In this document: in pieces, positions 10,109-18,834 of the stretch
Layout: each line of letters starts with the position of its first letter
Numbering within the stretch: position 1 is the stretch's first letter
Origin: a virus
Strand: one strand, 5' to 3'
DNA: 28,617 nt
IMG/VR virus record: IMGVR_UViG_3300012666_000380
Location: 1 to 28,617 of that record
Notes under the pieces: model-generated
Database searches by the model: none
The model's input: the letters and a program-made list of their open reading frames with translations, nothing else
What the model was told of the DNA's origin: nothing
Made by a program: the position numbers and the translations under genes

Positions 10109-10126
10109 AATTCTTTAAGGAGAATT
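10109..10126 (+). promoter_or_regulatory. SD-presenting hairpin before the major capsid start
   Basis: AATTCT (10109-10114) pairs perfectly with AGAATT (10121-10126), leaving the loop TTAAGG. The Shine-Dalgarno AAGGAG (10117-10122) starts in this loop, and the ATG follows six bases after the stem. A small AT-rich stem would keep the ribosome site ordered but accessible. Confidence 0.5.
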
Positions 10127-10131
10127 AAAAC

Positions 10132-11103
10132 ATGGCAGGCGAAACAACAACCTCGTCTCTCTCTGTAGATCAGGTCGCGTTTGACCGTCTTGCGTACTTC
10201 GCATTGCGTTCAGAACTCCTCTTCGACCAGGCAGCAGACGTACAACCAGTACAACAGGCAATGCCTGGAACTGGTGTCACATTCACCATCTTCGCAGACA
10301 TCGCAGCAGCGACATCTACGTTGAACGAAGTAACTGACGTAACCCCAACAGCGCTCTCGGACAGTCAGGTAACAGTTACCTTGGCTGAATACGGCAACGC
10401 AGTTGTTACAACAGCAAAACTCCGTGGCACAGCATTCTTGGATGTTGACTCGGCAGCAGCAAACATCATTGGCTACAACGCAGGTGACTCGATCGATCAA
10501 GTCGTTCGTGAAGTCCTCGCTGGTGGCAGCAACGTGGCATACGCAACTGGTGGAGCTTCAGCCCCATCAAGCCGTGTAACCATGGCTGTTGATGACTTGC
10601 TGGTAGCAAACGACATCCGTAAGCAAGTAGCTGCTTTGCGTGGAGCAAACGTAGCAACTTTCAACGGTTCGTACATTGGCTTCATCCACCCAGACGTTTC
10701 GTATGACTTCCGTTCGGCAGTCGACGTAGCATCGTGGCGTACACCAGCTAACTACGTAAACCCAGAAGGCATTTACAATGGCGAAATTGGCCTCTTTGAA
10801 TCGGTACGATTTATCGAGACACCACGCGCCAAAGTATTCACTAACGCTTTCAACGGCGCAGGTGCAGCTGGTACGGGAGACTCGTATGCAACTCTTATCA
10901 TGGGTCGTCAGGCTCTTGCTAAGGCGTTCAGCACACAAGATGGCAATGGCGCAACACCGAAGATTGTCCGTGGCAATGTCACAGATATCTTGATGCGCTT
11001 GCAACCACTCGGTTGGTACTGGCTTGGTGGCTACGGTCGCTTCCGCGAGGCTTCGCTTCGTCGAATCGAATCGGCTTCAAGCATCGGTGCAAACGCCGTC
11101 TAA
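10132..11103 (+). CDS. Major capsid protein, N4 gp56-like (323 aa)
   Basis: A strong AAGGAG precedes the ATG by nine bases. The protein contains a segment around residues 45-95 with FTIFADIAAATSTLNEVTDV and then SQVTVTLAEYGNAVVTT. This pattern (a 'tLnE..d..p..ls...v.vtl.eyGn' run) is characteristic of N4 gp56-family major capsid proteins with the HK97 fold. A later part holds FNGSYIGFIHPDVSYDFR and IMGRQALAKAF, also typical of capsid proteins of this family. Length matches a single-domain HK97-fold capsid subunit. It follows the scaffold and is closed by a strong terminator, as expected for the most highly expressed structural gene. Codon choice differs visibly from its neighbours (many GCA, GTA, AAC and TTC codons), consistent with high expression. 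Confidence 0.88.
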   Translation: MAGETTTSSLSVDQVAFDRLAYFALRSELLFDQAADVQPVQQAMPGTGVTFTIFADIAAATSTLNEVTDVTPTALSDSQVTVTLAEYGNAVVTTAKLRGTAFLDVDSAAANIIGYNAGDSIDQVVREVLAGGSNVAYATGGASAPSSRVTMAVDDLLVANDIRKQVAALRGANVATFNGSYIGFIHPDVSYDFRSAVDVASWRTPANYVNPEGIYNGEIGLFESVRFIETPRAKVFTNAFNGAGAAGTGDSYATLIMGRQALAKAFSTQDGNGATPKIVRGNVTDILMRLQPLGWYWLGGYGRFREASLRRIESASSIGANAV

Positions 11104-11116
11104 TAATTAGTCAAAG

Positions 11117-11150
11117 CCCTCCGCCCTTCCTCATCTGGGCGGGGGGTTTT
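11117..11150 (+). terminator. Intrinsic terminator after the major capsid gene
   Basis: CCCTCCGCCC (11117-11126) pairs with GGGCGGGGGG (11137-11146) over 10 bp with one T-G wobble, around the 10-base loop TTCCTCATCT, followed by TTTT (11147-11150). The U-tract is short, so some readthrough into the downstream genes is likely. Its position right after the capsid gene would boost capsid over tail transcripts. Confidence 0.8.
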
Positions 11151-11178
11151 GCTATACTCTTGCTAACGAAAGGTTCGT
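11149..11178 (+). promoter_or_regulatory. Candidate extended -10 promoter and SD hairpin for the next unit
   Basis: TGCTATACT at 11150-11158 is an extended -10 (TGn plus TATACT) starting at the terminator's U-tract. I see no good -35. The predicted start (about 11165) is followed at once by a hairpin, ACGAA (11166-11170) with TTCGT (11174-11178). It has the 3-base loop AGG, so the AAGG of the ribosome site lies at the loop, and the ATG at 11179 directly follows the stem. Confidence 0.4.
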
Positions 11179-11547
11179 ATGTCGATTTCTAATTATGCTG
11201 AACTAAAAATCTTGGAGCACACCACAGGTAAAACTGCTTGGACTATGCCAACAAATGTGTATGTTAAGTTGCATACTGGTGATCCTGGTGAGGCTGCTAC
11301 TTCTAATGCTGCTACAGAAACAACTCGTAAAGTTTCTGCTTGGGCTACAGCGGCTTCGGGTGCTATTGCAACAAGCTCAACTATTGAGTGGACTAACGTT
11401 TCTACTACAGAAACTTATACACATTGGTCGTTGTGGGATGCGTCAACTGCGGGTAATGCTTTGTGGACTGGTGCATTGTCAGCATCAGCTGCTGTAACTG
11501 CTGGCGATACTTTTCAAATCACTACACTAACCCTGTCTCTCGATTAG
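11179..11547 (+). CDS. Small structural protein, Gp80/tail-fibre-like family (122 aa)
   Basis: The start ATG sits directly after a small hairpin that holds AAGG. The N-terminus (NYAELKILEHTTGKTAWTMP then VYVKLHTGDPGEAATS) matches a pattern I know from small phage structural proteins labelled Gp80 or putative tail fibre. In these a short helix is followed by a beta-sandwich opening with 'lyvaLytgdP'. The rest is rich in Thr, Ser and Ala beta-strands (TETYTHWSLWDASTAGNALW). It is about the usual length of that family. It may sit on the virion surface as a decoration or fibre component. Exact role is unknown. It begins the post-terminator transcription unit. Confidence 0.65.
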   Translation: MSISNYAELKILEHTTGKTAWTMPTNVYVKLHTGDPGEAATSNAATETTRKVSAWATAASGAIATSSTIEWTNVSTTETYTHWSLWDASTAGNALWTGALSASAAVTAGDTFQITTLTLSLD

Positions 11548-11548
11548 T

Positions 11549-11568
11549 CATAGGGGGTAAACCCTATG
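11549..11568 (+). promoter_or_regulatory. Hairpin enclosing SD and start codon of the repeat protein gene
   Basis: CATAGGG (11549-11555) pairs perfectly with CCCTATG (11562-11568) around loop GGTAAA. The Shine-Dalgarno tract AGGGGG (11552-11557) lies in the 5' arm and loop. The start codon ATG (11566-11568) forms the end of the 3' arm. If it folds, this 7-bp stem would directly limit initiation. Confidence 0.55.
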
Positions 11569-12804
11569 GCATTAGTAACTGGCTACATAGAACCATATGT
11601 AGATACACGCCCGTACTATCGCAGTACTTTTGTTCCGCCGCGTACGTTTTCTCGTACAGCTACAGGTAGTGGTGTTAGTGCCGAAATAACTGTTTCGGGA
11701 CCTACTCAACTACGTATTGGTAAATTAACCGACTATTCATTCCCATATTTAACTGGTGGTGCTTATTATGTAGGTGCACCTATAAAACAAACAGCTGCTA
11801 CTGGTTCTGGTTTTGGTACGGAAACCGCAATTGCGTTTGCAACAAAAGCAAAATTTGGTACTGGTTCAGGAACTGGAACCGAGTCGGCTTCTGGAGTACG
11901 TATAGTATTACGTACAGCTACAGGGTCTGGTGTTGGCGCTGATAGCGCAATAACTTCTGGTTCTAACCAGTTACGTCTTACTGGGTTAACTGACTATTCA
12001 TTTCCATATTTAACTGGTGGTCGCTACTACTTAGGTCCTGCAGTATATGCAAGGACTGCTACTGGTTCTGGTGTTGGTACGGAAACTGCAACTAGATTAG
12101 TTATAACCATTCGTACTGCTACGGGTAGTGGTACAGCAGGTGAATCAACAAGCACAACTAAAGAAGTTTTAGCTCGCACCGCTACGGGATCTGGCACAGG
12201 TTCTGGTGACGGAGATCCATTTTTGTTCCTTATAAGACAAGCAACAGGTGGTGGTACTGGAGCTTCTTCAACAGTATTTATTCGTGGTTTAGTAAGAAAC
12301 GCTACAGGTAGTGGTAACGGCACGCAAACAGCAGTCAGACTTCTTGTCAATATAAGAACCGCTACTGGTTCTGGTCTTGGCACCGAGACTGCCACCAGAA
12401 TCGTTGTGCTGCTCCGTACGGCGACAGGATCGGGTGTTGGTACCCAGACAGCCAGCGGTATCGAATCGCTTCCTAGAACAGCTACAGGCTCTGGTGTGGG
12501 TTCTGTAAGCCAGAATGCTACATGGGTTAAGTCTCGCATGTTTAGGGTTCCACAAACTACGAACTTTGCTTTTGTTGAAGGGTACTCAGAAATTAGTTGG
12601 CAACCACGCAAACGATTGTTTGCTCGTCTACCTAACGGCGTAAGAGTAGAGAACCTCTTTGAATTACAAGATGGTTCGTATACAATTAATGATCCAAGAG
12701 ACGGCACAGTAGTTAAGGTCTACCTTGGTTCACACGTAATCCCATTAACGGATGAAGAAGTAGCAGACCTAACAGCAGCTGGATACGGAGCATACATAAC
12801 GTGA
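11566..12804 (+). CDS. Repeat-rich fibre-like protein with 12 TATGSG repeats (412 aa)
   Basis: Residues 31 to about 320 hold 12 copies of a unit built on TATGSGxGxxTA followed by 5-9 hydrophobic/basic residues. Two of the gaps carry a nearly identical inserted module (LTDYSFPYLTGG then YYxG). The C-terminal 80 residues are not repetitive (SEISWQPRKRLFARLPNG, later VYLGSHVIPLTDEEVADL) and look like a separate folded domain. Repeats of this type suggest a beta-solenoid or fibrous shaft on the particle. Every repeat uses a different mix of synonymous codons, so they are old and kept by selection, whereas the two YSFPYLTGG modules are 34/36 identical in DNA (11725-11760 and 11986-12021). No enzymatic motif is visible. 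A fibre or capsid-surface role is inferred. Confidence 0.75.
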   Translation: MALVTGYIEPYVDTRPYYRSTFVPPRTFSRTATGSGVSAEITVSGPTQLRIGKLTDYSFPYLTGGAYYVGAPIKQTAATGSGFGTETAIAFATKAKFGTGSGTGTESASGVRIVLRTATGSGVGADSAITSGSNQLRLTGLTDYSFPYLTGGRYYLGPAVYARTATGSGVGTETATRLVITIRTATGSGTAGESTSTTKEVLARTATGSGTGSGDGDPFLFLIRQATGGGTGASSTVFIRGLVRNATGSGNGTQTAVRLLVNIRTATGSGLGTETATRIVVLLRTATGSGVGTQTASGIESLPRTATGSGVGSVSQNATWVKSRMFRVPQTTNFAFVEGYSEISWQPRKRLFARLPNGVRVENLFELQDGSYTINDPRDGTVVKVYLGSHVIPLTDEEVADLTAAGYGAYIT

Positions 12805-13073
12805 AGCATGCAGAAACGCATCCTACTTTAGATGTTGACGGTTGCTTTGGTTGTCGCATTGCAAATATACGCATGGGCACTAACAGCACTACTACACGCG
12901 GGAAAGAAGTAGAGCAAACAAATAAGGTAGAACGCAACTGGCAAAAAGACATGCCAGCTTATAAACGTTTACGGAAGGAAGGTTTGCAACCAAAACGAAT
13001 TGATGGTTCAGCCGAAGTTGAGGCAAAAGCAAAACATAAATGGCAAGTCGAGACAGGGATAGGTATTAAATGA
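12801..13073 (+). CDS. Small CxxC phage protein (90 aa)
   Basis: The start is GTG, overlapping the previous stop (GTGA). The N-terminus has a HAETHPTLDVDGCFGCRIANI pattern with a CxxC pair at residues 15-18, which I recognise from small actinophage proteins of the 'GCFGC' type. The remainder is charged and basic (NWQKDMPAYKRLRKEGLQP). The two cysteines may bind a metal with a partner or in a dimer. Its stop overlaps the ATG of the next small gene. The same motif occurs in many phages next to structural genes, but its job is unknown. The GTG start is supported by coupling; no strong independent Shine-Dalgarno is evident. Confidence 0.6.
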   Translation: MKHAETHPTLDVDGCFGCRIANIRMGTNSTTTRGKEVEQTNKVERNWQKDMPAYKRLRKEGLQPKRIDGSAEVEAKAKHKWQVETGIGIK

Positions 13074-13246
13074 AAAACAAATCTAAAGTAAATGCTGCTG
13101 GTAACTACACCAAACCAGCAATGCGTAAAAGATTGTTTAACAAAATTAAGGCTGGTTCTAAAGGTGGAGATCCTGGTGAATGGTCTGCACGTAAAGCACA
13201 GTTGCTTGCAAGCGAATATAAAAAAGCTGGTGGGGGATACAAATAA
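13070..13246 (+). CDS. Small basic phage protein with SKGGDPGEWSARKAQ motif (58 aa)
   Basis: This gene is only 177 bases and begins with an ATG overlapping the upstream stop (ATGA). It ends at a TAATG overlap with the next gene. The translation (MKNKSKVNAAGNYTKPAM at the start) contains the block AGSKGGDPGEWSARKAQLLA and ends KKAGGGYK. I recognise the 'tkp.lR..l..kI.aGskGG.pG.WSARKAQ' pattern from tiny basic proteins that recur in aquatic phages and in giant viruses. I recall a DUF label for this family but cannot verify which one. It is strongly positively charged, so binding to DNA or RNA is a reasonable guess. Coupling on both sides makes it a real gene despite its size. Confidence 0.75.
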   Translation: MKNKSKVNAAGNYTKPAMRKRLFNKIKAGSKGGDPGEWSARKAQLLASEYKKAGGGYK

Positions 13247-13482
13247 TGGCATTAGCTAAATCTCAAAAGTCGTTAAAGAATTGGACAGCACAGAAATGGC
13301 GTACGTCTGATGGCAAACCATCTAAGGGTAAGAAACGATATCTGCCTTCTGCTGCATGGGCTTCGTTGAGTCCAGCAGAAAAAGCTGCAACTAATAAAAC
13401 TAAAGCAGAAGGAAACAAAAAGGGAAAGCAATTTGTAAAGCAACCTAAAAATATTGCACAAAAAACAAAGAGGTATCGTTAA
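13246..13482 (+). CDS. Small basic protein, KKRYLPxxAW family (78 aa)
   Basis: The start overlaps the upstream stop (TAATG). The protein is lysine-rich. It opens with a WTAQKWRTSDGKPSKGKKRY segment, has a central LPSAAWASLSPAEKAATN, and ends KKGKQFVKQPKNIAQKTKRY. I know this arrangement ('rYLP..aw..Ls..ek.atn..K..g.kkGkQfv.qp..ia.k') from small proteins found beside the SKGG-type protein in phages and large DNA viruses. The function of the family is unknown to me. High charge suggests nucleic-acid association, possibly with packaged DNA. The next gene starts at its stop codon. Confidence 0.75.
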   Translation: MALAKSQKSLKNWTAQKWRTSDGKPSKGKKRYLPSAAWASLSPAEKAATNKTKAEGNKKGKQFVKQPKNIAQKTKRYR

Positions 13483-13781
13483 TGAAATCACCAGCATGGC
13501 AACGCAAAGAAGGAAAGAATCCAAAAGGTGGACTCAATGCAAAAGGTCGAGCCTCGTACAAAGGTGGGACATTGAAAGCCCCAGTTAAAGCAGGAGACAA
13601 TCCACGTCGAGCATCGTTTCTTGCACGCATGGGTAATGCACCAGGACCTGAAAGAGATGAAAAAGGTAAACCAACAAGACTGCTATTATCTTTACAGGCT
13701 TGGGGTGCTTCGTCTAAAGCGGATGCACGGTCTAAGGCTAAAGCAATATCCGCACGAAACAAGAACAAGAAAGGCAAGTAA
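13482..13781 (+). CDS. Small basic protein, KNPKGGLNAKGRAS family (99 aa)
   Basis: The start overlaps the upstream stop (TAATG). The sequence SPAWQRKEGKNPKGGLNAKG is followed by NPRRASFLARMG and ends in a helix LQAWGASSKADARSKAKAIS with a lysine-rich tail. It belongs to a recognisable small protein type ('spaWtRkeGKnpkGGLn.kGRas'). It usually occurs near the previous two small proteins in phages and in some giant viruses. No catalytic residues are visible. The strong positive charge and lack of cysteines or membrane segments suggest an RNA/DNA-binding or virion-internal role. This is an inference, not a known function. Confidence 0.75.
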   Translation: MKSPAWQRKEGKNPKGGLNAKGRASYKGGTLKAPVKAGDNPRRASFLARMGNAPGPERDEKGKPTRLLLSLQAWGASSKADARSKAKAISARNKNKKGK

Positions 13782-13885
13782 TGCCAAAAGTAGGAAAAAA
13801 AGAATTTGCTTACACCCCAAAGGGTATGGCAATGGCTAAGAAGGAAAAGATGAAGATGAAGATGAAAGCCAAGAAAAAGAAATAA
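13781..13885 (+). CDS. Tiny lysine-rich protein, MPKVGKKEFAYTPKG type (34 aa)
   Basis: This is a 105-base gene, with ATG overlapping the upstream stop and its own TAA overlapping the ATG of the next gene (TAATG on both sides). The product starts MPKVGKKEFAYTPKGMAMAK and ends in alternating Met/Lys and Lys runs. The 'MPKVGKKxFxYTPxGMxxAK' opening recurs in tiny phage proteins, so I think it is genuine. It is almost half lysine. Together with the three preceding small basic genes it forms a cassette just before the head-tail adaptor. Its role is unknown. Confidence 0.65.
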   Translation: MPKVGKKEFAYTPKGMAMAKKEKMKMKMKAKKKK

Positions 13886-14772
13886 TGACAACAGCAGCAA
13901 CGGTAATTAATAAAACGTTGCGGCAACTTCTATCTGGAACGGTGGAGGCCCGCAACAAGTTGGCCTCTACCGTAAACAGTTCTGCCACTAGTATTGTTTG
14001 CACGTATGCCCTTGAGGGGTTGCGCGCTGGGCAGATTTTTGAAATTGAATCCGAAGTATTTTATATTTGGGCTGCTGATACGGTAACAAAAACATTAACT
14101 GTAGAACGTGGGTTTAACGGAACTACCGCAGCTGCGCATACGTCTGGCGCATTGGTTACTGTTAACCCTAGATTCCCAAGAGCACAAGTTCTTGAAGCCA
14201 TCAATGATGAAGTATTAGATCTTTCATCTCCAGTCAATGGATTGTTTCAGGTCAAAACATTAAACTTTACGTACAACGGCACAGACAGAATGATTAATTT
14301 AACTTCTGCTACCGATGTTATCGACATCTTAAACGTATCTGTTCGGTATCTAACCGACGACTATCCAGTTGCTCGTAAGGTAAAACTTGTTCGTGATTTA
14401 CCAACAGATGACTTTGCTTCTAGTTTTGCTTTAAAGTTTGATCAAGCTGTATACCCAGGCAGACTTCGTATTGTTTACAAAGCACCTTACGCTTCAGTTA
14501 CTACTGAGGCGACCAACCTCAACACAGACTGTGGTATACAGGAATCAGTAGAGGACATTGTTGTTGTAGGTACACAGCTTAGGTTGATGGCGCCACGTGA
14601 AATTAAACGCAACTTTGTTGAATCGCAAGGGGATACCCGTAGGGCAGAAGAAGTTGCATCAGGCGCAATTACTAACTCCGCAACAGCACTAAGACAACTA
14701 CGGAGAGACAGAATTATTGCGGAGGCTGCTCGCTTAATGCGGTCATACCCAACATTCTTGACAAGGGAATGA
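13885..14772 (+). CDS. Probable head-tail adaptor/connector protein (295 aa)
   Basis: The start overlaps the upstream stop (TAATG). The N-terminal part is a beta-rich module: ARNKLASTVNSSATSIVC, then RAGQIFEIESEVFYIW and LTVERGFNGTTAAAH around residues 25-90. The latter resembles the small 'dGd.i.igsE.m.Vts....ltV.RG..GT.aaaH' domain found in many phage structural proteins. The middle contains FPRAQVLEAINDEVLDLSS, the kind of helix seen in podovirus adaptor proteins. The C-terminus is helical (LRLMAPREIKRNF, RRAEEVASGAI, RRDRIIAEAARLM). Length and position directly before the large propeller-like tail gene fit the ring that joins portal to tail nozzle. The assignment is by architecture and context only. 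Confidence 0.55.
   Translation: MTTAATVINKTLRQLLSGTVEARNKLASTVNSSATSIVCTYALEGLRAGQIFEIESEVFYIWAADTVTKTLTVERGFNGTTAAAHTSGALVTVNPRFPRAQVLEAINDEVLDLSSPVNGLFQVKTLNFTYNGTDRMINLTSATDVIDILNVSVRYLTDDYPVARKVKLVRDLPTDDFASSFALKFDQAVYPGRLRIVYKAPYASVTTEATNLNTDCGIQESVEDIVVVGTQLRLMAPREIKRNFVESQGDTRRAEEVASGAITNSATALRQLRRDRIIAEAARLMRSYPTFLTRE
14753..14771 (+). promoter_or_regulatory. SD-presenting hairpin before the GTG start at 14776
   Basis: CATTC (14753-14757) pairs with GAATG (14767-14771) around the loop TTGACAAGG, which contains the AAGG ribosome site. The GTG start follows four bases after the stem, and the upstream gene's TGA (14770-14772) overlaps the 3' arm. The stem is only 5 bp, so on its own the evidence is weak. 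Confidence 0.3.
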
Positions 14773-14775
14773 TCC

Positions 14776-16629
14776 GTGTCTTTAGTACTACGGTATACGG
14801 ATGCCTACTATCCAGCCGTTCCTTACTTTGCAGGAAAGGAAAGTAGTTCTTTGGTTCCAGATATTTTTCCTGTTGCAATTGACTCAAGGCCGTTTCTTGT
14901 AGATTCCAAATCAAATATGTTCTCGCGTGGATTTGAACCTAGGGTTCGAGATTCGGTTGATCAGTCAACCACGCCAGGCGAAGCAGCAATTAACCCACAA
15001 GGTTTGTGGCGTCGTGGCGAATCATCGTGGCATCTGGGTGCTGGACAGAAGTATGCCGACACAGCAGAAGCACAAGATTATAGGTTTTACACAAGTCAGG
15101 GTATTGATCCGTGGACTAAGGGTCAGATCTCGTTGCTTAAAACTGTGGCCCTGTCAAAGTCTGCTACTGGCACAAACTTAAAGATTGCTACAACAGATAC
15201 AGAAGTTTATTTCTTAGACGGTACGAATCTTTACTATTCAACAAACCCATATGCATCGAGTCCAACATGGACAGCTGTAACTGGGCTACCTACTGGTACG
15301 CCACGCGACATGGTTAGTGACGGATCATCTGTTTATTTAACATACCCAGGTACAACTAATTCGTATGGATTATGGAAAGTACCTTCAAGTCACACACCAG
15401 CCAACGTTGCTTACGGTCACGAGTTTGGTTATGTTGATTTGTCTAAAGGATTTTTTATTGTTACTGGTGGTCCAGGAAGTAGCGAGCAACACAAACTTTA
15501 TTACAACCCAACTGGCAATGTTGCTGCAGCAGACTACACGCATCCATTAAATGCTTGGATATGGATTGGTTCTGCGTCTGGACCTAACGCTATTTATTTA
15601 GCTGGCTATACAGGTAACCGTGGAGCAATTTATAAACTTACCATCACTACAGCTGGCGTTTTGGAAACACCAGTAGTTGCACTTGATTTACCAATTGGAG
15701 AGATACCAACTCACCTTGGCTCTTACCTTAACGGAGTATTAATTGGAACAAACAAGGGTGTACGTTTTGCTACAGCAGATAACAACGGAGACTTAACTAC
15801 TGGTGCTCTTATTTCAACTAGTGGTGACGTAAACCAATTTACTGCTGAAGGTAATTTTGTTTGGTTTACTTGGTCAAATTTTGTTACTTCGACTTCAGGA
15901 CTTGGACGATTAGACCTTTCAACGTTTACAGCGGTAAACGTCCCAGCTTACGCATCAGACTTAATGGCTGGTGTTGGTGGCACAGTTCAAGCTGCGGGAA
16001 CATTTAGTTCTAAACGATTGTTTGCTATTTCTGGTGTAGGACTTTACGCCGAATCAACAGACCTCGTTTCATCTGGTTCGATTACTACTGGCATTTACAG
16101 GTGGGGTATTCCAGATAGAAAGTTTGTAGCTAAGTTTGATATCCGCAGCACCCCGTTAGCTGGTACTGTAACTCCGTATATCTCTAGTGATACTGGAACG
16201 TATACAGCAATGACAGCACACAATGTTGCGTCAGCTACTGAGTCTGTTGCTACTGGTCCGCAAGCTAAATTTATCGAAGCTTCTTTTAGGTTGGACTTTA
16301 CTAGGGGTTCCACTACTACTGGCCCAACCGTAACACGTTGGATGGCTCGAGCCTACGCTTCGCCAGCCCGAAGCCAGGTGTTCAAAGTGCCCCTACTTAT
16401 GCATCACCAACAGGTAATCAACGGCATTGAATACTATTTAGATGTAGAAAGCGAACTAACCCTGTTAAGGAACTTAGTTACGAATCCACGTGTGGTAAAC
16501 TATCAAGAGAATACGGAGACCTTTTCGGTAGTCGTAGAGGACTTGGAATTCCAAGTTCTTGACGGCATCCAAGGAAAGTGGAACCTTGAGGGTGTCTGTG
16601 TTGTTACAATGAGATCTGTGCAGGATTAG
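14776..16629 (+). CDS. Large beta-rich tail protein, nozzle/propeller-like (617 aa)
   Basis: The start is GTG, three bases after the upstream stop. The protein is beta-strand-rich with repeated motifs such as TDTEVYFLDGTNLYYST, MVSDGSSVYLTYPG, NGVLIGTNKGVRFAT and VWFTWSNFVTSTSGLGRLDL. This is the strand pattern of a beta-propeller-like or repeated beta-sheet protein. The last 170 residues form another beta domain (YISSDTGTYTAMT, then QVINGIEYYLDVESELTLL). No catalytic motif or signal peptide is seen. In podovirus-like genomes a long beta-rich protein after the adaptor is usually the tail nozzle, and this is my leading inference. An alternative is a large minor tail or receptor-binding protein. 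Fibre genes follow immediately. Confidence 0.6.
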   Translation: MSLVLRYTDAYYPAVPYFAGKESSSLVPDIFPVAIDSRPFLVDSKSNMFSRGFEPRVRDSVDQSTTPGEAAINPQGLWRRGESSWHLGAGQKYADTAEAQDYRFYTSQGIDPWTKGQISLLKTVALSKSATGTNLKIATTDTEVYFLDGTNLYYSTNPYASSPTWTAVTGLPTGTPRDMVSDGSSVYLTYPGTTNSYGLWKVPSSHTPANVAYGHEFGYVDLSKGFFIVTGGPGSSEQHKLYYNPTGNVAAADYTHPLNAWIWIGSASGPNAIYLAGYTGNRGAIYKLTITTAGVLETPVVALDLPIGEIPTHLGSYLNGVLIGTNKGVRFATADNNGDLTTGALISTSGDVNQFTAEGNFVWFTWSNFVTSTSGLGRLDLSTFTAVNVPAYASDLMAGVGGTVQAAGTFSSKRLFAISGVGLYAESTDLVSSGSITTGIYRWGIPDRKFVAKFDIRSTPLAGTVTPYISSDTGTYTAMTAHNVASATESVATGPQAKFIEASFRLDFTRGSTTTGPTVTRWMARAYASPARSQVFKVPLLMHHQQVINGIEYYLDVESELTLLRNLVTNPRVVNYQENTETFSVVVEDLEFQVLDGIQGKWNLEGVCVVTMRSVQD

Positions 16630-16637
16630 GAGAATAA

Positions 16638-17150
16638 ATGGCGGCAGTAACTAGGAGATCGTATGCAGGTGCAGCTCCTGCTTGCACGCTTACAAGTTCT
16701 ATTACTTCTGGTGATACAACTGCTTCACTTACTGGAACGGTAACTAACTGGCCTACAACTGCAGGTGGACCTTTCCACATGGTCATTGATCCAGGTTTGT
16801 CAACAGAAGAAAAAGTTCTTGTTGGTTCTCGATCAACTGGATCCCTATCTTCAATTACTCGTGGTGTAGATGGCACTTCAGCTAGTTCACACTCAGCAGG
16901 TGCTACTTGTTATCCAGTCTTCACAGCATCTGATGCTAACGAAGCAAACGAGTTTACGTCGACTTTGACTACTCGTGGCGATCTACTAACGTTAGATGCG
17001 TCCGCTAATCCCACCCGTATTGCTATTGGTACTGCGGGTTATTTGCTAACTTCTAACGGTACGGATGCTGCTTGGGCTGTTGCACCAACTTCGGGTATTA
17101 GTTCTGGTGATGATTCGGCTATCGTTTTGGGTTCACAAATTTTCGGTTAA
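16638..17150 (+). CDS. Tail/fibre-associated structural protein (170 aa)
   Basis: AGGAG lies seven bases upstream of the ATG. The first half has a beta domain with SSITSGDTTASLTGTVTNWP, then a FHMVIDPGLSTEEKVLVGSR segment and LSSITRGVDGTSASSHSAGA. This is another copy of the 'ltsgdttasl...ideeGl.sEEkvlv.s....ltv.RG.dGT.a..Hs.GA' module seen in phage structural proteins. The second half has TTRGDLLTLDASANPTRIAI followed by YLLTSNGTDAAWA, a short repeat-like unit typical of phage fibre heads. No enzymatic motif is visible. It is likely a virion-surface protein attached to the tail. Confidence 0.65.
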   Translation: MAAVTRRSYAGAAPACTLTSSITSGDTTASLTGTVTNWPTTAGGPFHMVIDPGLSTEEKVLVGSRSTGSLSSITRGVDGTSASSHSAGATCYPVFTASDANEANEFTSTLTTRGDLLTLDASANPTRIAIGTAGYLLTSNGTDAAWAVAPTSGISSGDDSAIVLGSQIFG

Positions 17151-17163
17151 CATAGGAGATAAC
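17146..17163 (+). promoter_or_regulatory. Weak SD-loop hairpin before the start at 17165
   Basis: GTTA (17146-17149) pairs with TAAC (17160-17163) around the loop ACATAGGAGA, which displays the AGGAG Shine-Dalgarno. The ATG begins two bases after the stem. The stem is 4 bp, so it is reported because of the repeated pattern in this region rather than its own strength. Confidence 0.25.
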
Positions 17164-17164
17164 A

Positions 17165-17527
17165 ATGGCAACATTTACTAAGAAAAAACTGTCGGGTTCT
17201 ACTGATGGTTTGGCTATCAAGGTTACGGGTACTGGTACTGGTTCGACGGTGACGGTTCATACCGCGTACACGACGGTTACTACTGCTGGTTTGTTTGATG
17301 AGATTTGGTTGTATGCAAATAATACTTCTGCTTCGGCTGTGAAACTTACGTTGGAGTGGGGTACTGCTACGGCTGCTGATGGGAATATCGAACTTAATAT
17401 TGCTGCGGAGTCGGGTCTTGTTTTGGTGGTTCCTGGTTTGATTTTGCAGAACACGAAAGTTGTGAAGGCGTTTGCTGCGACTGCTGATGTGATTTTGCTT
17501 ACTGGTTATGTAAATCAGATTTCGTAG
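17165..17527 (+). CDS. Small beta-rich tail/fibre protein (120 aa)
   Basis: AGGAG lies upstream of the ATG at good spacing. The product is strongly beta-predicted, with KKLSGSTDGLAIKVTGTGTG, VHTAYTTVTTAGLFDEIWLY, LTLEWGTATAADGNIELNI and then a VLVVPGLILQNTKVVKAFA stretch. It ends in VILLTGYVNQIS. I recognise this as a common small aquatic-phage protein type found among fibre genes, but with no established function. Its codon usage differs from neighbours (frequent TTG, TCG, ACG and GTG), so it may have been recruited separately. There are no cysteines, signal peptide or catalytic signature. Confidence 0.65.
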   Translation: MATFTKKKLSGSTDGLAIKVTGTGTGSTVTVHTAYTTVTTAGLFDEIWLYANNTSASAVKLTLEWGTATAADGNIELNIAAESGLVLVVPGLILQNTKVVKAFAATADVILLTGYVNQIS

Positions 17528-17536
17528 GGTTTAACG

Positions 17537-18382
17537 ATGTCTAGATTTGGTCAGCGCACAAGAGTTAGTACAGAAATTTCGGCTTGGATGCCGACAGGTG
17601 ATGAGGTTCCACAAAATCCACCATCTATTGAAATGCTTTTGGCTGGCGGCGGTGGTGCAGGTGGTGGCGGTAATGGTATTTTTTATCCATCGAATCCATC
17701 ACAATCAGGCGGTGGTGGCGGTGCTGGCGGTGTGTACTCCTCGGTTACATCAAACCCAGGCGGCGGTCCAGGTGGTGCTGTAGCCTCAGCAACACCTATT
17801 GCTAGTGGGGTTACATATACAATCACTATCGGCGGTTCGGGAACTCCATCAACTTTTGCTGCACCAACAATTTCAACAATTACGGCAAACGGTGGTAGTG
17901 GCGGTTCGGGAGCAGGAGGACCTGGAGGTGCTGCTGGTGCCTACACAGGAAACCCATCTACTTATAGCGCTGGCGGTACTGGTCCTAGTTCCCCTGAAGC
18001 CTCTCAAGGTGGCGGTGGCGCAGGAGCAGGAGGAAGCGGTGCAGTTGGTGGGCAATATCCAACTAATTATGGTCAAGGTGGCGCTGCAATAACAAATACG
18101 ATTAGGGCAGCAGCCCCAAGTTTTCCGCAGTCTTATGGTGGTGGCGGTGGCGGCGGTGAAGTTCCTGGGCGAATTCCAGGTAATTCGCCTGGTGGAGGAA
18201 CTTATGGCACAGGCGGAGTCGGAGGGGTTAGTTCTGGGTCTTCTGGTCAGCCAGGTGTTTGTGTATTTAGGTATCCTGATACATTTCCTACAGCACCCAC
18301 AACAACTGGTAGCCCAACATTGACCACAACAGGTGGTTATCATATTTACACCTTTACGGCATCAGGAACAATCGCATGGTAG
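17537..18382 (+). CDS. Glycine-rich tail adhesin / receptor-binding protein (281 aa)
   Basis: The ATG follows AGGG nine bases upstream. The first 30 residues (RFGQRTRVSTEISAWMPTGD) form a short N-terminal part. From residue 33 there are many GGGG and GGAGG runs separated by Ser/Thr/Asn/Pro segments (EMLLAGGGGAGGGGNG, QSGGGGGAGGVYSS). A short non-Gly strand block, TITIGGSGTPSTFAAPTI, interrupts them. The C-terminus ends GVCVFRYPDTFPT and then YHIYTFTASGTI. This is the composition of glycine-rich phage adhesins that fold as polyglycine-II sandwiches, exposing variable loops to the receptor (as in T-even-like Gp38 adhesins). It probably contacts the host surface. Overlap with the next gene (7 bases) suggests coupling to a conserved small protein. 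Confidence 0.7.
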   Translation: MSRFGQRTRVSTEISAWMPTGDEVPQNPPSIEMLLAGGGGAGGGGNGIFYPSNPSQSGGGGGAGGVYSSVTSNPGGGPGGAVASATPIASGVTYTITIGGSGTPSTFAAPTISTITANGGSGGSGAGGPGGAAGAYTGNPSTYSAGGTGPSSPEASQGGGGAGAGGSGAVGGQYPTNYGQGGAAITNTIRAAAPSFPQSYGGGGGGGEVPGRIPGNSPGGGTYGTGGVGGVSSGSSGQPGVCVFRYPDTFPTAPTTTGSPTLTTTGGYHIYTFTASGTIAW

Positions 18383-18765
18383 CGGTTCGTCATTTTGCTG
18401 AATTGGAAAACAATATTGTAGTAGCAGTTGTTGCTGTTGCGGAAAATGATTGTCTTGATAGTGATGGTAATTTTCAAGAAGTTATTGGCGAAAACATTTG
18501 CCGAAGGTTGCGACAATCTTCACTCAAATGGATTGAATGTTCAACTGATGGGTCATTTCGCAAAAATGCTGCCGTTTTAGGAACGGTTTATGACGAGATT
18601 AAAAATGGTTTTTACAATCCAAATAAACCTTTTCCATCTTGGGTCTTAGACGAAACCCTTAACTGGACAGCACCTGTTTCAAAACCAGAAAATGTTGAAG
18701 GTTTTTATTTTGATTGGGATGAGTCAAGTTTGTCTTGGGTTAAGATAGCAGAAACACCTAAATAA
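18376..18765 (+). CDS. Small conserved aquatic-phage protein with SFRKN/PSWVLDE motifs (129 aa)
   Basis: The ATG overlaps the last seven bases of the adhesin gene. The protein begins with a beta strand HFAELENNIVVAVVAV, then has the blocks CRRLRQSSLKWIECSTDGSF followed by RKN, and PFPSWVLDETLNWTAP. It ends in FYFDWDESSLSWVKI. I recognise this pattern ('HFAkld..nvV..vivv', 'W.q.s.ng..RKn.a.iG..yd', 'pfpSWvld...w.wp.p.P') from small proteins found next to fibre genes in many marine and freshwater phages. It may be a fibre chaperone or a virion protein; no function is established to my knowledge. It marks the beginning of a more AT-rich stretch. Confidence 0.65.
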   Translation: MVAVRHFAELENNIVVAVVAVAENDCLDSDGNFQEVIGENICRRLRQSSLKWIECSTDGSFRKNAAVLGTVYDEIKNGFYNPNKPFPSWVLDETLNWTAPVSKPENVEGFYFDWDESSLSWVKIAETPK

Positions 18766-18788
18766 TATTTTCAAAGTTCGAAATATTA
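18763..18788 (+). repeat. AT-only 8-bp inverted repeat at the stop codon
   Basis: TAATATTT (18763-18770) pairs with AAATATTA (18781-18788) around a 10-base loop. The 5' arm contains the stop codon of the preceding gene. It has no following T-tract on the + strand and the stem is A-T only, so it would be a weak terminator at best. It lies just before the candidate promoter at 18800. Confidence 0.4.
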
Positions 18789-18833
18789 AAAAACTAAGAT
18801 ATACTTTGGCAATGGAATTTACGGGAAGTAAAT
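18777..18833 (+). promoter_or_regulatory. Candidate promoter and SD hairpin before the oxygenase pair
   Basis: TATACT at 18800-18805 is a good -10, with a poor -35 TTCGAA at 18777-18782 (17-bp spacing). The -10 and the bases after it (TATACTTTGGCAA) resemble the other candidate at 11153 (TATACTCTTGCTAA). Downstream, ATTTAC (18817-18822) pairs with GTAAAT (18828-18833) over 6 bp around the loop GGGAA, and the ATG begins two bases later at 18835. The ribosome site would again lie in the loop. Confidence 0.4.
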
Positions 18834-18834
18834 A

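Follow-up and report, generated by a model that had tools for sequence, protein, structure and literature searches.

A conserved hairpin at one late-gene junction of an uncultured virus is a probable translational-coupling element

The late genes of an uncultured freshwater virus of bacteria raise the question of whether small hairpins that hold the Shine-Dalgarno (SD) motif constitute a general mark of the starts of these genes, or whether such structures are under selection at particular sites only. The window analyzed here is the whole record of this virus, 28,617 bases. A sequence-only reading of this window had described seven late starts, each preceded by a stem around or near the SD, and had proposed selection on these structures. 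All seven pairs of complementary arms were found again, each at the reported position or no more than 1 base from it; the start codon at 14776, which had been read as ATG, is actually GTG. The seven stems, with their fate in homologous leaders, are as follows.

11549..11568, plus strand: hairpin CATAGGG-GGTAAA-CCCTATG before 11566; conserved; minimum free energy (MFE) −10.4 kcal/mol, z −3.4
10109..10126, plus strand: stem AATTCT-TTAAGG-AGAATT before the capsid gene; kept in 2/37 distinct leaders, not conserved
11166..11178, plus strand: stem ACGAA-AGG-TTCGT before 11179; 5′ arm overlaps the SD GAAAGG; 21/86 leaders still able to pair
14753..14771, plus strand: stem CATTC-TTGACAAGG-GAATG before GTG 14776; within the coding end of the upstream gene; 6/48 leaders, not conserved
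17146..17163, plus strand: stem GTTA-10 nt-TAAC before 17165; 11/80 leaders, z −0.07, outside the MFE fold, not conserved
17522..17537, plus strand: 4-bp stem before 17537; 0/4 leaders, z −0.15, not conserved
18817..18833, plus strand: stem ATTTAC-GGGAA-GTAAAT before 18835; z −2.9 in the window; A-C mismatch in the sole close relative

Of the seven sites, 11566 alone gives support for selection on a hairpin that holds the SD; the other six look like chance. On the strength of the comparisons described below, we consider it probable that 11549-11568 is an intercistronic translational-coupling hairpin, the other six stems being chance pairings and late genes bearing no general mark of this kind. 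The hairpin lies within a gene order that runs from the capsid gene through a gene for a gp80-like virion protein to tail/fibre-type genes and an exonuclease region. The genes concerned are listed here.

Start at 10132: capsid gene (major capsid), PF13252, phrog_1357
11179..11547, plus strand: gp80-like virion protein, upstream member of the proposed coupled pair; PF23140 (E 1e-30), phrog_240 (E 7e-34), PDB 8jou (E 8.5e-12)
11566..12804, plus strand: downstream member of the proposed coupled pair, 412 aa, no assigned function; phrog_23524

The title of the PF23140 family is 'Podophage GP4 fiber I protein gp80'. The N-terminus of the 412-aa product is similar to relatives of the MAxTAVTGY/F type, and searches of Pfam and PDB found no match for this protein. 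It contains many internal ATGSGVG-like repeats, and the gene occupying this position varies from relative to relative.

The hairpin starts 2 nt past the stop codon of the gp80-like gene, with the SD AGGGGG of the downstream gene in its 5′ arm and loop and the start codon of that gene in its 3′ arm. The relatives used for comparison were database fragments, some of them from one contig; duplicates were removed on the basis of their leader sequence. Their junctions share the layout UAG-(few nt)-AGGG(G)-loop-(C)CCC(U)-(short linker)-AUG. In the hairpin class, the GGG/CCC core is kept in all 33 of the 33 distinct junction sequences (15 at 85% leader identity); the loop has between 3 and 6 nt, and variation also affects the outer pairs and the linker that leads to the start codon. 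Compensatory changes, which the sequence-only reading had suggested looking for, were found at 11566 in the form of two both-sided exchanges, but not at 11179. In the two sequences concerned (L126 and L230), AGGGA/UCCCU replaces AGGGG/CCCCU, that is, an inner G-C pair is exchanged for A-U with both sides changed. Covariation is thin: the both-sided changes affect a single pair in two related sequences, two of the four core pairs are invariant, and the term for covariation amounts to only −0.29 kcal/mol. Two other explanations of the site were rejected, namely a terminator, because no T-run follows the stem, and readthrough of the stop at 11545, because a second in-frame TAG is present at 11551-11553 and relatives do not all have the start in the same frame.

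Conservation of the two arms might alternatively reflect their sequence, the G-run serving as a strong SD and the C-run as start-codon context, with the pairing as a by-product. The two core pairs that never vary are compatible with this explanation, as is the related GGUAGCC that precedes many other starts at this junction where no stable stem is formed. However, both GGGA sequences carry a matching UCCC, and the arms stay complementary while the lengths of the loop and the linker change. Moreover, the C-run is not explained by codon constraint, because the 3′ arm is non-coding, and we know of no role in initiation for a C-run beside a start codon, which also counts against conservation of the sequence as such. 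We therefore regard this explanation as unlikely. In several loci that lack a strong hairpin (L110, L136, L368, L378 and others), (A)GGUAGCC recurs directly before the start codon; it may correspond to a weak stem or to a motif in the sequence itself.

The hairpin class accounts for 33 of the 102 distinct junctions that follow gp80-like genes. Another 68 distinct junctions of the gp80 family have a weak hairpin or none, and show instead the weaker GGUAGCC motif, no structure, or a stop and a start that nearly touch. The stop-to-start distance is short in nearly all 102 junctions, and some relatives have a near-overlap of stop and start in place of the hairpin. Two types of downstream genes predominate behind the hairpin, MAxTAVTGF/Y and MAxFQSTL, and it is absent or weak before genes of the MATNFPTSLD type. 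It was not found at the matching junction in the Streptomyces, Mycobacterium, and Gordonia phages that were checked. A covariance model built from the junction set had one match in the window, its own reverse complement being the only, weak second match; no curated Rfam family matched anywhere in the window. Across 2.4 Mb of related loci, 50 of the 71 distinct GGG-hairpins that abut an ORF start are located at this junction, and the remaining 21 occupy no comparable recurrent gene junction, with several lying inside the capsid gene. As judged from these sequence comparisons, the junction hairpin is conserved in many related viruses and appears confined to this virus group.

Coupling through RNA unfolding is an established mechanism, with phage f1 VII/IX, MS2 coat/lysis, and E. 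coli rpmI-rplT as examples (PMC12548453). As in these systems (PMC12548453), stop and start are close together at the junction described here, and the downstream ribosome-binding site is covered by a hairpin that the ribosome of the upstream gene could open. The junction differs from them in having a tiny hairpin of 4-7 bp that is contained entirely in the interval from stop to start and is shared across uncultured DNA phages of one group; the coupling proposed here is based on sequence.

We infer the following sequence of events for translational coupling at this junction. The downstream gene's SD, AGGG(G), would pair with the C-run just before the start codon and thus be masked, so that the hairpin most likely keeps this gene closed to free ribosomes. 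The SD arm lies 3-9 nt past the upstream stop throughout the hairpin class, a distance that, as ribosome footprints indicate, is within reach of a terminating ribosome. A ribosome that finishes the gp80-like gene would then cover the 5′ arm and open the stem, and the same or a following ribosome could initiate at the downstream gene. The output of the second protein would in this way be tied to that of the first, possibly for the purpose of matching their amounts. The effect might also run in the other direction, because structure after a stop can lower coupling: in the relevant passage of PMC12548453, Chemla et al. are cited for a correlation between structure just after the stop codon and lower coupling.

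Hairpins at ribosome-binding sites are also found in phage T4. Sequestered SDs (genes e, soc, 49, and I-TevI; PMC3014915) resemble the junction in that the SD or the AUG is part of a helix beside the start. The helix of T4 gene e, however, distinguishes early from late transcripts and is not tied to an upstream stop (PMC3014915), whereas at the junction the nearest promoter-like element is located upstream of both genes. The split initiation regions of T4 genes 25 and 38 likewise have a small stem at the ribosome-binding site, in part of the phage group only, but there the stem lies between the SD and the AUG and helps initiation (PMC3014915), whereas at the junction the stem includes the SD itself.

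If the coupling function is correct, the junction would illustrate a way in which a phage group that is common, though uncultured, could fix the ratio of two virion proteins. A more far-reaching proposal, which we put forward as speculative and rather improbable, is that the hairpin is a dedicated stoichiometry device that remains attached to the gp80-like gene as its anchor, while the gene behind it is exchanged among at least two unrelated kinds (MAxTAVTGF and MAxFQSTL types). In that case, a newly acquired fibre partner would at once be made in step with the anchor.

The hairpin might also be a protein-binding translational operator, such that a virion protein binds it and shuts off the downstream gene late in infection. 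In the hairpin of the MS2 replicase operator, the SD is in the 5′ arm and the AUG in the 3′ arm. The layout at the junction, with the AUG in or beside the 3′ arm, is the same, and the presence of one site per genome would also suit an operator. Binding by a protein should, however, hold the loop constant, and no constant loop is seen: apart from the range in length, the letters vary (GGUAAA, AUAA, AAU, GAU), there is no conserved bulge, and, in contrast to MS2, no binding protein is known. An operator of this type is accordingly quite unlikely, and coupling by unfolding is the reading that we retain.

The six remaining stems look like chance complementarity around A/G-rich ribosome-binding sites. 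The capsid-leader stem AATTCT/AGAATT before 10132 is limited to near-identical loci, and other relatives retain only AAGGA in an A-rich leader. The arms of the stem before 14776 coincide with the final codons of the preceding gene, and they are retained solely by homologues that are at least 90% identical. At both 14776 and 17165 the arms are present but are not paired in the predicted minimum-energy fold. The stem before 18835 is broken by the A-C mismatch in L311, the only close relative found (0/1). Before 11179, the SD GAAAGG is retained in 74 of the 86 leaders; this motif is complementary to CCUUUC at the 3′ end of many 16S rRNAs. The stem that overlaps it was rejected as a structure, the C6-G16 pair being broken in 12/20: the opposite arm drifts, both-sided changes number zero, and the covariation score is no better than that of shuffles.

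The chance level was also higher than had been supposed. When perfect stems of at least 6 bp with loops of 3-10 were counted in all 43-nt windows of this genome, 6.2% of the windows had one, compared with the earlier rough estimate of about 4%. The three 6-bp stems at seven late sites become 4/25 across all late starts, including a further 6-bp stem before 9597 that had not been listed; the pattern is lacking at eighteen other late starts, which had been left out mainly because they adjoin an upstream gene. Shuffling the flanks with the SD and the start codon held fixed gave an expectation of 0.40 SD-spanning stems of at least 6 bp in the window, compared with 3 observed at the 22 SD-bearing late starts (P = 0.004), and of 1.56 stems of at least 5 bp, compared with 5 observed (P 0.018). 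This SD-anchored test was run after the pattern had been picked, and the excess is nominal; at the 6-bp threshold it depends on 10132, 11566, and 18835, one of which is the conserved 11566 site.

In the relatives, the corresponding excess is missing. Across 827 SD-bearing leaders, with the 11566-type site excluded, 14 SD-spanning stems of at least 6 bp were observed compared with 14.4 expected from shuffles, and 46 stems of at least 5 bp compared with 53.4 expected. The folding of 689 leaders from 61 gene clusters equaled that of shuffles (mean z −0.003); the mean of the 11566 cluster in this set (−0.45) was set aside because automatic start picking had misplaced many starts there. Early and late genes can be compared inside the window alone, because the fetched loci contain no early-gene homologues. 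Given that the 827 leaders show no excess, there is no general hairpin mark on the late genes. The sequence-only reading had named homologous leaders without stems, together with hairpins no more frequent than in shuffled controls, as evidence that would count against it, and a structural signal across the late-gene starts of this phage, for which the nominal enrichment in this single genome speaks, is hardly credible in the face of the relatives, whose leaders have lost the stems and fold no better than shuffles. The proposed phage-wide regulatory signal is thereby removed, and one small, testable element is left. As a separate observation, the 11 non-redundant leaders of one cluster (L033:19308), which is absent from the window, fold better than shuffles (mean z −1.14), with TACGA...TCGTA arms around GAGGA before the ATG.

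Upstream of the junction hairpin, a fused terminator/−10 unit that had been missed in the earlier reading is conserved. Its two parts are listed here.

11112..11151, plus strand: intrinsic-terminator-like hairpin after the major capsid gene; MFE −29.0, z −6.4
11150..11158, plus strand: extended −10 promoter element TGCTATACT, 20 nt before ATG 11179; sole TGNTATANT match in the window

The T-run of the hairpin leads directly into TGCTATACT, and the −35 position would fall within the terminator. A −10 of this type is present in 54 of 58 non-redundant relatives, at a distance of 20-22 nt from the ATG in 49 of them, and 53 of the 54 have a strong hairpin just upstream (mean z −5.7). The stems differ widely in sequence among relatives (UUCG loops, GAAA loops, long stems), which looks like the outcome of selection on structure. 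The expected transcript would start near 11165, with a leader of about 14 nt. The putative promoter and terminator may together form a barrier between the capsid gene and the fibre genes.

A TATACT element at 18800-18805 is located 29 nt before 18835, the start of a gene for a 2OG-Fe(II) oxygenase, and the gene that follows (19422/19446) matches a phage family labelled ferrochelatase. Because a single close relative was found, these observations suggest that the two genes are a recently acquired pair, perhaps with a promoter of its own.
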